Of a DNA stretch of 40,109 nucleotides, positions 18,947-22,738 are shown one piece after another. Each line of letters begins with the position of its first letter. Position 1 is the stretch's first letter. Location of the stretch: positions 1 to 40,109 of the forward strand of contig CAJAVM010000017.1 of the NCBI GenBank assembly GCA_903945435.1. Reading direction: 5' to 3'. The DNA comes from an uncultured bacterium. Lineage in GTDB: Bacteria; Patescibacteriota; Patescibacteriia; Patescibacteriales; UBA12465. The translations under genes and the position numbers were made by a program. The notes under the pieces are model-generated. The model ran no database searches and was not told the DNA's origin. It worked only from the letters and a program-made list of their open reading frames with translations.

Positions 18947-20350
18947 TTAAAATTTTCCCGAGCTACCGAAGCCAGCATCGTGACGGTCGGTAATATCTTC
19001 TAGTTTACCTTCCTCTAATTCTGAGGAAGCAATTTTTTGGATAATAATTTGAGCAACTTTTTGACCAGGGACGATATTGAAAATATCTTCACTGAGATTT
19101 TTAACAACCACTTTTATTTCGCCCCGATAATTAGAATCGATTACACCACCCATAGTTGTTATTCCTTCATTTGCGAGGCCACTTTTATCCCAAATCAAAC
19201 CCGCATAGCCATTAGGAATCATCATTTTAATTCCAGTTGAAACTAAGGCTTGACCGTAGGCGGTAATAGAATAATAGTCGTTAGCATATAAATCGTAACC
19301 GGCATCACTAGCATGTGCTTTTTGTGGAATTTTTGCTTCAGCGGTAGTTTTTTCTACTTTTAATTTTATAGAGGAGTCAGCTTGATTAACTGGGATGTTG
19401 GTTTGATTAACGGGGATAGTAGTTGGGATAACGGGGGTGGTAATTGGAGCTAGGATTGGCTCTGGTATGATTATTGGTTGTTGAGGTTGCGCGACTGGTT
19501 GTGGAGTCGGGATGAACGGCTGCGGAGTAGGAGCGACCGGTTGAGCCATTGAATTATTTAAGTTGTTGTTAGTATTATTAAAAATTAAATCGCGATTTTT
19601 TAAGATTTGTTCATTAGCGCCAATTAGACTACCGATTTGTTCAAATCCACGTCCAACTTTAGCCTGATGGACAATGAGCTGACTAGTTGCGAGCCATACT
19701 AAAAAATGAATAGATTCTCGGCTTAAAATTTGGCCGTTATGGGTACATTTAATTAAACGGAAACCAGGCAAAGTATTCGCAATTTCTAGATAGGTTTGTT
19801 CAGCTTGCTTTAAATGAGTAAAATTATTTTCATGAATATCAGTAGTTTTTCCAGTCCAATCTTCACGCGATCTTTCTTTCGCTAACATAAAAGAGATTTC
19901 TGGTTCGACTTGAAGGACGATAGTTAAGTCTGGTTTTGGAATTTCAAATATTTTATATTCTAAATCATAAAGCCAATTGAAAAAAACTTTTCTTTCAAGT
20001 GGATTTTCTATTTTACAACCTTGATGACCTAAGCTAGCACTCGTATATCTATTTGCTAAAACAATTTTTCCTTCTTGAAGCCATTTTTTAATTCTTGGAC
20101 TAGCATCAAAACGGTCAACTGCATAAAAAATAGAAGCCTTGTATGGGTCGACATCATTAGCTTGGCCGTATTTACCGGAGAGGTATTCTTCTACTAATCC
20201 GGCTGATTTAGTATTATATTGAGGAAAATCGGCAACTGCTACAGCGTAGCCTTCCGCTTCTAGTTTTTCTTTAAGCAAGTTAAGCTGAGTGGTTTTTCCA
20301 CTTCCATCTGTACCATCGATTACGATAAATTTTCCTGAATAGTTTTCCAT
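18947..20350 (-). CDS. Fused thymidylate kinase and dUTPase
   Basis: One 467-residue frame joins two enzymes of dTTP synthesis. Residues 1 to about 225 are a thymidylate kinase: P-loop GTDGSGKT (13-20) and an NRYTSASLGHQG segment (100-111) where the usual DRY is NRY. A linker follows (about 230-328) that is Asn-, Pro- and Gln-rich with repeats such as PTPQP and TIPVNQTNIPVNQ. Residues 329-467 are a dUTPase with all five motifs: DAGYDLYA (349-356), WDKSGLA (387-393), GGVIDSNYRGE (401-411), PGQKVAQI (428-435) and the C-terminal DAGFGSSGKF (458-467). The dUTPase half makes dUMP and the kinase half makes dTDP; the step between is expected from the ThyX-like neighbour. It sits 4 bp after the kinase gene and 16 bp before gatB. 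Confidence 0.93.
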   Translation of the reverse strand: MENYSGKFIVIDGTDGSGKTTQLNLLKEKLEAEGYAVAVADFPQYNTKSAGLVEEYLSGKYGQANDVDPYKASIFYAVDRFDASPRIKKWLQEGKIVLANRYTSASLGHQGCKIENPLERKVFFNWLYDLEYKIFEIPKPDLTIVLQVEPEISFMLAKERSREDWTGKTTDIHENNFTHLKQAEQTYLEIANTLPGFRLIKCTHNGQILSRESIHFLVWLATSQLIVHQAKVGRGFEQIGSLIGANEQILKNRDLIFNNTNNNLNNSMAQPVAPTPQPFIPTPQPVAQPQQPIIIPEPILAPITTPVIPTTIPVNQTNIPVNQADSSIKLKVEKTTAEAKIPQKAHASDAGYDLYANDYYSITAYGQALVSTGIKMMIPNGYAGLIWDKSGLANEGITTMGGVIDSNYRGEIKVVVKNLSEDIFNIVPGQKVAQIIIQKIASSELEEGKLEDITDRHDAGFGSSGKF

Positions 20351-20354
20351 AGTT

Positions 20355-20909
20355 TTATTTTTTTATCTCATCAAAAATTTTATCTAATTGAGAATGTAAT
20401 TCTGATAAGGAGCCATTGTTGTCAAGTTTAAAAACAGCCTTCTCCATTACTACTGGAATTTCTTGTTCGGCTTCTTTATTACAATCATCGAGAAATTCTT
20501 CAAAAGTTTTATCAATATCTCCCTTGTTTTCATTACGGAGTTTCATTCTTTCATAACGTGTTTGGATACTAGCGTCAATACTGATTAATTTGAATTCTGG
20601 TAAACCACTTAAATGCATAATATCGTCCATGCGTCTTACCCCATCAACAATTACAATATCTCCTTTATCATTTTTAGCATCTTCGGTTATTACTTTCGCT
20701 AGAATATCGCTACCAAAGCGTGTTCTGACATCTAGAGAAAGATTTTGCATATTTTCTCTATCAATTGGTAAATATAAACGATTTAAAATATTTCTTAAAA
20801 CTGTAGAAAATTTATAACTTGAAGCGTTATATTTTTCTTCGATATATTTTTTGCTTACATCTTTTCCGCTTGCAATAGGACCAACAAGGCCGATAATAAT
20901 TTTTGGCAT
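20355..20909 (-). CDS. P-loop nucleotide kinase, UPF0200/dNMP-kinase-like
   Basis: The 184-residue protein has a P-loop ending in GKD instead of GKS or GKT (GPIASGKD, residues 10-17). A FGSDILAK segment (near 86) and VIVDGVRRMDDI (near 109) follow, then a Lys/Glu/Asp-rich lid-like region. This layout fits the UPF0200/dephospho-CoA-kinase group and also viral-type deoxynucleoside monophosphate kinases, where GKD is seen. Its exact substrate cannot be read. It lies in the middle of a thymidylate operon (2 bp after thyX, 4 bp before tmk-dut), which points to a deoxynucleoside monophosphate. A CoA-related role is the alternative. Confidence 0.65.
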   Translation of the reverse strand: MPKIIIGLVGPIASGKDVSKKYIEEKYNASSYKFSTVLRNILNRLYLPIDRENMQNLSLDVRTRFGSDILAKVITEDAKNDKGDIVIVDGVRRMDDIMHLSGLPEFKLISIDASIQTRYERMKLRNENKGDIDKTFEEFLDDCNKEAEQEIPVVMEKAVFKLDNNGSLSELHSQLDKIFDEIKK

Positions 20910-20911
20910 AG

Positions 20912-22201
20912 TTATTTTTTAATAATATCGGCTAGACCGCGTCTTACGTCCCAATCATCTAAATCTAAATCAGAATATAGTTTTAAATTAGGAAATTTTT
21001 TAATTACCGCGTGGTGCATTTTATGAGCAATAGTACGAAGGGATGGATGAACAGTCCTATTAGACCTTAGTTCAATTACATACACAGCTGCTGGTAGGGG
21101 AAAAGTAAGGTGACAAGATACATTAAATCCAATCGCGATATAATATTGTTTAATTTCTGGAGTTGTTTCTAATTTATCAATTAATATTTTTTGTGCAGTA
21201 ATTAAAGCAAGAGCTTCGGCACGTAAATCTTCGGGAAGTTGTTCTAAATACCAATCGCTAAAGCCTAATCCAGAAGTTAATAATGGCATGCGACCAACAC
21301 CGTTGCGATGGCGTTGAATATCTCTAAACGAGCCGAAGTCTAATTTAAAATCAAAAGTAAAAGTTCCTAAATCACCTAAAAAATTAGGTAAGCCAATTTT
21401 AGGGGGGCGAGCGTCTATTGTTTTTTGGTATTTAATTAAATCCTCCGTTTTTACTGTTGTTATCATGGAAAAATCGACTGGATTTTCTGGGTTAAAGTAA
21501 GAATATTCATTTACGGTTTGAGCTCTATAGGCTTCCTGCTCTTCATTTAAAATATGAGAAAAACTATGAGAATATTTTTCTTTTAACTTTTCTAAAATTG
21601 TTTCTGCACTTTGGCGGACTTCTAGTAATGGGTGATGGCGAAGTAAGACTAGGTGGTCCCAGGCCTGACGTAAATTAGTATGCCAGCTTAATTGAGTTGT
21701 GATTCCGGCAGGAAGGAAACCACGCATAATATCGAATCCACGAGCCTTGATTGCTTTTATATAAACACCCTCATCTTCGCTTTCTGGACGAGGGAATTTA
21801 GTCATTAAATATTGTTGGATTCTTTCCTGATTATTTATATAGAAGCTCATCCAATTATCCAAAATAGCTTTTGACTCAGGAGTTCCAATCGGGTCAATGA
21901 TTTCTTGTTTACCCATATCTATATAACGGGTACTGGTTTCTTGCCCGCTGTATAACTGCCAGTCCTGGATAGCTTTATCGCCTAAGATACTAATATTTTC
22001 GATGAAGATAGTTGTACTTCCACAATCGGCGATACTAGCATGACCATAGCCAACGTAGAATGTCGCCATAAATTTTCCAGAGCCGCTAGCTTTAACTTTC
22101 TCAACGTGTTCAGTTACGCTTTTTGGACTTCTGGAATACAGCGCTTGCATCATTGCAACGTCTTCTGGATTAAATTCATCGTAAATAAAGATGTTAGACA
22201 T
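20912..22201 (-). CDS. Tandem ThyX-like flavin-dependent thymidylate synthase
   Basis: ThyX converts dUMP to dTMP with FAD and methylenetetrahydrofolate. This 429-residue protein is about twice the usual ThyX length and seems to hold two diverged copies. The first (about 1-210) has GHASIADC (53-60), GQETSTRY (86-93, the dUMP-binding S-x-R), RGFLP (160-164) and the NLRQ...EVRQ region (176-197), but DWQ stands where RHR should be. The second (about 225-429) keeps RHR (297-299) and an ELRS...R segment (377-389), yet lacks the S-x-R after it. Each half therefore has part of the ThyX motif. It is the second gene of the operon, 21 bp after the dCMP deaminase. No thyA is in the window. Confidence 0.82.
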   Translation of the reverse strand: MSNIFIYDEFNPEDVAMMQALYSRSPKSVTEHVEKVKASGSGKFMATFYVGYGHASIADCGSTTIFIENISILGDKAIQDWQLYSGQETSTRYIDMGKQEIIDPIGTPESKAILDNWMSFYINNQERIQQYLMTKFPRPESEDEGVYIKAIKARGFDIMRGFLPAGITTQLSWHTNLRQAWDHLVLLRHHPLLEVRQSAETILEKLKEKYSHSFSHILNEEQEAYRAQTVNEYSYFNPENPVDFSMITTVKTEDLIKYQKTIDARPPKIGLPNFLGDLGTFTFDFKLDFGSFRDIQRHRNGVGRMPLLTSGLGFSDWYLEQLPEDLRAEALALITAQKILIDKLETTPEIKQYYIAIGFNVSCHLTFPLPAAVYVIELRSNRTVHPSLRTIAHKMHHAVIKKFPNLKLYSDLDLDDWDVRRGLADIIKK

Positions 22202-22222: not shown

Positions 22223-22738
22223 TTAATACTTTGTCACTTCTTCGGATAAAAGTACATACTCTATTTGAGCTTCTTTGAAGATTTCTTTGCTTCTTGCTCC
22301 AGCTTGATAATCTTGTGCACAAACCACCCTTTTAATTCCGGCATTAATAATCATTTTTGCGCAAGTATAACAAGGGGACATTTTGCAGTATAGAGTTCCT
22401 CCTTCAAGTGCAATTCCCATGCGAGCTGCTTCGCAGATAGCATTTTGTTCAGCATGAGCTGTTCTGATACAGTGATTAGTCTGAGTTCCGTCAGCATGAG
22501 TAACCATATGCATTTCATGTCCGACTTCATCGCAGTGAGGAGTACCAACAGGGGAACCAACATATCCAGTCGAAACAATACGACGATCTCTAGTAATTAC
22601 ACATCCAGTGCGCCCGCGATTACATGAACCGCGACTAGCAACCATCTCAACTATTTTCATAAAATACTCATCCCAAGAAGGACGTTTATAAATTTCTTCT
22701 TGTTTGTTTTCTGAAGTTGATGATTGTGGTTCGTTCAT
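22223..22738 (-). CDS. comEB: dCMP deaminase
   Basis: The enzyme turns dCMP into dUMP, the substrate of thymidylate synthase. The 171-residue protein has the zinc-dependent deaminase signature HAEQNAI (H95, E97 as catalytic Glu) and PCYTC (C123, C126). It also has the GYVGSPVGTPHCDEVGH segment (59-75), which in dCMP deaminases carries an extra metal site and nucleotide contacts. A short polar N-terminal tail precedes the domain. It is the first gene of the minus-strand dTTP operon. No clear promoter was found, but an inverted repeat lies about 80 bp upstream. A general cytidine or ComE deaminase is less likely given the neighbours. Confidence 0.93.
   Translation of the reverse strand: MNEPQSSTSENKQEEIYKRPSWDEYFMKIVEMVASRGSCNRGRTGCVITRDRRIVSTGYVGSPVGTPHCDEVGHEMHMVTHADGTQTNHCIRTAHAEQNAICEAARMGIALEGGTLYCKMSPCYTCAKMIINAGIKRVVCAQDYQAGARSKEIFKEAQIEYVLLSEEVTKY

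Follow-up and report, generated by a model that had tools for sequence, protein, structure and literature searches.

The cell that carries this DNA, an uncultured bacterium of the Patescibacteria, very probably makes its thymidylate with a ThyX that arose by an ancient duplication and fusion, after which the work of the active site was divided between the two copies; from this division we infer the assembled site, the oligomer, its stoichiometry and its activity. Within the analysed window (the whole stretch of 40,109 nucleotides), the open reading frame described in an earlier sequence-only reading is present, with residue numbers that are correct, and is here placed on the minus strand, together with its neighbours:

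20912..22201, minus strand: tandem (two-domain) ThyX of 429 aa, with an ATG start
22223..22738, minus strand: dCMP deaminase, which makes dUMP, 21 bases upstream of ThyX (Pfam dCMP_cyt_deam_1, E 5.9e-24)
20355..20909, minus strand: P-loop (deoxy)nucleotide kinase-like protein, 2 bases downstream of ThyX (AAA_17, E 1.2e-9; DNMK weak)
18947..20350, minus strand: dTMP kinase-dUTPase fusion (dUTPase, E 1.3e-33; Thymidylate_kin, E 3.6e-24)

The genes form a run that lies entirely on the minus strand, in the order dCMP deaminase, ThyX, kinase-like protein, dTMP kinase-dUTPase and a gatB-like gene, with intergenic gaps of 21, 2, 4 and 16 bases. A dCMP deaminase gene is found near the long ThyX in 40 of 80 cellular relatives. 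A 91% identical homologue of the tandem ThyX occurs in Falkowbacteria, to which the host is probably related. The dTMP kinase-dUTPase fusion itself comprises 467 aa, with a proline-rich stretch joining both domains, and in 20 of the 80 cellular relatives dTMP kinase and dUTPase domains are likewise carried on one open reading frame near the ThyX gene.

Profiles and models alike identify the tandem ThyX gene as two fused ThyX domains, each predicted to adopt the ThyX fold:

21551..22201, minus strand: N-terminal ThyX copy, residues 1-217 (Pfam Thy1 on this piece, E 7e-14; hhalign, E 1.2e-14)
20915..21514, minus strand: C-terminal ThyX copy, residues 230-429 (hhalign, E 7.5e-7; AlphaFold2 model of the half alone, pLDDT 92.7)

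On the 429-aa protein, Pfam Thy1 (PF02511) scores 62 bits against a cut-off of 24.8, which places it as a ThyX homologue, and detects the N half at E 8.6e-17 and the C half weakly (E 0.042); the NCBIfam ThyX equivalog (TIGR02170) reaches 28.4 bits, below its cut-off of 87.9. The hhalign values come from profile-profile comparison with 22 short ThyX references, which are ordinary single-domain proteins from the same phylum. Since the direct comparison of the N-copy and C-copy profiles is weak (E 0.021), the kinship of the two copies rests on each half matching ordinary ThyX. The AlphaFold2 model of the full chain (127 related sequences) has a pLDDT of 94.7 and a pTM of 0.91, and the top PDB matches found for it by Foldseek are M. 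tuberculosis ThyX, while for the C half modelled alone every one of the best 50 PDB matches listed is an enzyme of the ThyX fold. The sequence-only reading would fall if the halves did not adopt the ThyX fold, an objection that fails because the models of the full chain and of the C half match ThyX in the PDB.

The active-site residues are distributed over the two copies. The sequence-only reading had claimed that the N copy keeps S90-T-R92 and has DWQ in place of RHR, and that the C copy keeps RHR at 297-299 and lacks S-x-R. Both observations hold in the profile-profile register, where the DWQ of the N copy and the RHR of the C copy each align on the canonical RHR, and in an unconstrained MAFFT alignment (55 N copies, 55 C copies and 22 short sequences), which reproduces that register:

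22034..22042, minus strand: H54-A-S56, N copy, equivalents of H53 and S55, the other-subunit residues for folate and FAD (H in 170/204 and S in 200/204 N copies; C copy without them)
21956..21964, minus strand: D80-W81-Q82, N copy, at the place of RHR (R78 equivalent is R in 0/204 N copies)
21923..21940, minus strand: E88-T-S90-T-R92-Y93, N copy, dUMP-binding loop and Tyr lid (S90 204/204, R92 204/204, Y93 198/204)
21668..21676, minus strand: N176-L-R178, N copy, equivalents of N163 and R165 on the FAD phosphate side, with a less clean partition (R in 173/204 N copies)
21644..21646, minus strand: L186, the N-copy R174 position, Arg lost (R in 0/55 diverse N copies versus 22/22 short ThyX; an alignment of the long proteins alone reads R in 16/204)
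21305..21313, minus strand: R297-H298-R299, C copy, binding FAD and dUMP (R 204/204, H 196/204, R 204/204)
21272..21289, minus strand: M305-P-L-L-T-S310, C copy, at the place of ExSxRY, motif lost (sequence alignments)
21065..21067, minus strand: R379, C-copy equivalent of R174, kept (R in 201/201 readable sequences and in 54/55 of the diverse set)

The contiguous RHR...SxR that marks a ThyX domain is thus absent from each half, and in short ThyX of the same phylum RHR and SxR both lie within one domain. In addition, a third residue beyond those listed in the earlier reading is split, as the canonical R174 is kept solely in the C copy (R379). A shifted TxRY, considered as a possible remnant of the motif in the C copy, was rejected for this protein; T/S-x-R-[YF] two or three residues after the canonical SxR place is seen in 15 of 204 C copies, this one excluded.

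ThyX is a tetramer of 222 symmetry in which three subunits together form each active site (PMC6514825, PMC11940539, PMC3498832). In site 1 of M. tuberculosis ThyX, RHR95-97 and R199 are contributed by subunit A, S71 and R190 by subunit B, and S105, R107 and Y108 by subunit C (PMC6514825); H53 sits on the third monomer (PMC11940539), and a viral ThyX draws Q75 and R182 from one monomer and S88 from a second (PMC3498832). The correspondence of R199 (M. tuberculosis), R174 (T. maritima) and R182 (viral) is our own, read from the alignments together with the N-x-R...R spacing. When placed on this scheme, the split follows subunit role: the residues of one subunit (RHR and R174) are found in the C copy alone, whereas those of the other subunits (H53, S55, S88, R90 and Y91) are retained by the N copy and have mostly disappeared from the C copy, as counted in the diverse set:

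R78: short ThyX 22/22, N copy 0/55, C copy 55/55
R174: short ThyX 22/22, N copy 0/55, C copy 54/55
S88: short ThyX 22/22, N copy 55/55, C copy not conserved (S in 9/55)
R90: short ThyX 22/22, N copy 55/55, C copy 7/55
Y91: short ThyX 22/22, N copy 54/55, C copy 1/55
S55: short ThyX 22/22, N copy 52/55 (and T in 3), C copy not conserved

The H53 position of the 55 N copies is occupied by H in 41 and by D in 14, and R165 is not cleanly divided, being retained in 38/55 N copies and 17/55 C copies, with N163 also less clear-cut. Across both copies of one chain, the complete set of FAD and dUMP role residues is present, divided by subunit role. R174 is located about 80-100 residues from RHR in the sequence, yet is retained together with it. 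If a composite site is rebuilt, R174 would be expected to travel with RHR, as it does, and we consider this the strongest evidence because R174 was used neither to find nor to define the split. We also note that Asp at the H53 position (GDDS) is present in 34 of 204 N copies, for example L015-L021, L023 and L027-L031, and that this is the same change as in the H53D laboratory mutants 4kar and 4kas in the PDB.

Alignment with other long ThyX proteins, the comparison that the sequence-only reading had put forward, reveals that the split is general. The sample consists of 204 distinct proteins from cellular MAGs, cultured phages and large IMG/VR contigs, where the cellular members come from Patescibacteria, from Magnetovibrio/Rhodospirillaceae and Gammaproteobacteria MAGs and from one Spirochaetes-labelled MAG, and the cultured phages are those of Vibrio, Microcystis and Tunturiibacter. 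S90, R92, R297 and R299 are invariant in 204/204, of which the N-copy conservation in the viral subset is partly selected, since the viral scan was baited partly with the GQExSTRY stretch (RHR was never bait). The first RHR position (R78) is R or K in 0/204 N copies, and H298 is replaced by Q, N or G in 8/204. The role residues do not vary between families or in phages, even where identity to this ThyX drops to about 20%, and on these alignments the invariance of S90, R92, R297 and R299 is far beyond chance. Such fixation speaks against a neutral degeneration of both copies into an inactive protein, an explanation in favour of which the absence of a canonical motif from either half speaks; an inactive protein would, moreover, leave the thymidylate supply otherwise unexplained, and we judge this explanation extremely improbable.

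We suggest that the C copy takes the part of the FAD-holding subunit, with RHR and R174 as its contacts to dUMP, and that the N copies act as the two neighbouring subunits, which would provide H53 and S55 as well as E86, S88, R90 and Y91 of the dUMP loop, such that both copies are probably needed for one working site. Because two different subunits supply the N-type residues, a full site would require two N copies besides a C copy, and hence a dimer of chains; similarly, an assignment of the C copy to subunit A and of N copies to subunits B and C holds together only when the fourth subunit is a C copy, which again leads to a dimer of chains. Two chains would pair to form a pseudo-tetramer of the usual 222 form. 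Two of its four sites would be live, each drawing on a single C copy and a pair of N copies (C, N, N'); the remaining two (N, C, C') would be dead, lacking RHR, R174, S88, R90 and Y91 in this protein. The geometry of the site is borrowed from published structures of ordinary ThyX, the model here being that of a single chain. The composite site proposed in the sequence-only reading is strongly supported, through the role split, the family-wide fixation and the replacement of ThyA, with its three-dimensional form a prediction, whereas the proposed pseudo-dimer, in which a single chain would suffice in place of a homotetramer, gives way to a dimer of chains with two live sites.

The same reading had offered the alternative that one copy is purely structural. 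A division into one enzymatic copy and one purely structural or degenerate partner would fit the greater divergence of the C copy, which Pfam barely detects, but finds no support here because neither copy holds the full residue set; furthermore, each copy carries residues fixed in 204/204, and S88 and R174, which both matter for catalysis in known ThyX (PMC8316439), sit in different copies. We therefore regard a purely structural copy as very unlikely. It is also unlikely, if somewhat less so, that the two dead pockets have been converted to sites of another type, such as one for a regulatory nucleotide; residues conserved in these pockets include D80 of the N copy (142/204) and G313 and F/Y314 of the C copy.

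For the divided ThyX, a role in thymidylate synthesis is suggested by the distribution of ThyA. The own genome, a 0.98 Mb draft, contains one ThyX and yields no ThyA match, so that the tandem ThyX is its sole detected thymidylate synthase; glyA (serine hydroxymethyltransferase) and folD lie side by side in this genome, which makes a supply of CH2THF plausible. A survey of 380 genomes from the phylum gave ThyX matches in 126 and ThyA matches in 207. A strong ThyA is present in 1 of 64 genomes with a verified long ThyX versus 172 of 316 others (Fisher p 5.5e-18, uncorrected for shared ancestry). As the two are alternative enzymes for one reaction, such an exclusion is what would be expected, and the long ThyX behaves as a functional replacement of ThyA. 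In a congener (G357, same genus) ThyA is strong and ThyX gives no match, such that the synthases have switched within one genus.

These observations bear on the possibility that the protein, instead of being the cellular dTMP synthase, is a ThyX-like flavin methylase acting on a different substrate, as might be suspected from the presence of the UMP/dUMP methylase PolB among the fold matches and from the NCBIfam score that falls short of its ThyX cut-off. We consider this highly improbable given the near-complete mutual exclusion with ThyA across the 380 genomes, the status of the protein as the only thymidylate synthase detected in its own genome, and the packing of its gene between the dCMP deaminase and the dTMP kinase-dUTPase, which is repeated in many relatives.

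A FastTree of the halves keeps N copies, C copies and short ThyX apart with nearly the minimum number of changes, the C copies forming one group with a support of 87, and N-copy and C-copy distances correlate (r = 0.80). These sequences are most simply explained by a single old duplication and fusion, but the tree has long branches.

The tandem ThyX shares with known ThyX (PF02511; M. tuberculosis Rv2754c, T. maritima TM0449 and PBCV-1) the fold, the FAD and dUMP residues, the role in replacing ThyA and, as predicted, a site built from several subunits. In ordinary ThyX, single-domain chains that each carry RHR...SxRY form a homotetramer whose four sites are identical, whereas the tandem ThyX spreads these residues over two fused domains, which predicts two live sites per dimer. 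The long ThyX of phages (Microcystis phage Ma-LMM01 gp020, Vibrio phages BONAISHI and vB_VmeM-Yong, and IMG/VR contigs) have the identical two-domain layout and split, and the full-length model matches the viral entry A0A6B7EUB9 with TM scores of 0.93/0.87; the phage proteins are annotated merely as thymidylate synthase or hypothetical, and differ in being found outside the bacterial dCMP deaminase and gatB neighbourhood. The dUTPase of herpesviruses is a fused homo-oligomer with a divided site, in which each repeat keeps part of the site; it is a different enzyme with a different fold, and the likeness is one of general kind. The ThyX of Chlamydia is also long (about 530 aa) and may be of the split kind, which constitutes the main doubt about the novelty of the tandem split. 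A search largely confined to the open-access literature returned nothing relevant on a tandem or duplicated ThyX, on such a division of residues or on ThyX in candidate-phyla bacteria. Since a mutation in ordinary ThyX alters all four sites, questions of cooperation between sites and of subunit roles are hard to address, whereas a naturally occurring tandem ThyX, in which the residues are already sorted by subunit role, would allow the roles to be mutated one by one. In many Patescibacteria the real thymidylate synthase is probably the motif-broken long ThyX, to which annotation models give low scores, and the same kind of protein travels in large phages.

Other long or distant ThyX-like proteins were also observed. 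A third long kind (L096, L098 and L099) has KKRHRT in the C copy and, in the N copy, GHAS together with SGRR replacing SxRY, and L100 and L101 are single-domain, distant ThyX-like proteins from two genomes of one family, one of them alongside an ordinary short ThyX (L042). Six long ThyX open reading frames (L068, L073, L077, L078, L080 and L082) span 737-796 aa, with about 200 additional N-terminal residues; the stretch IVLSNRFTG in L068 resembles a dTMP kinase motif, which makes it possible that kinase-ThyX fusions are to be found among them.
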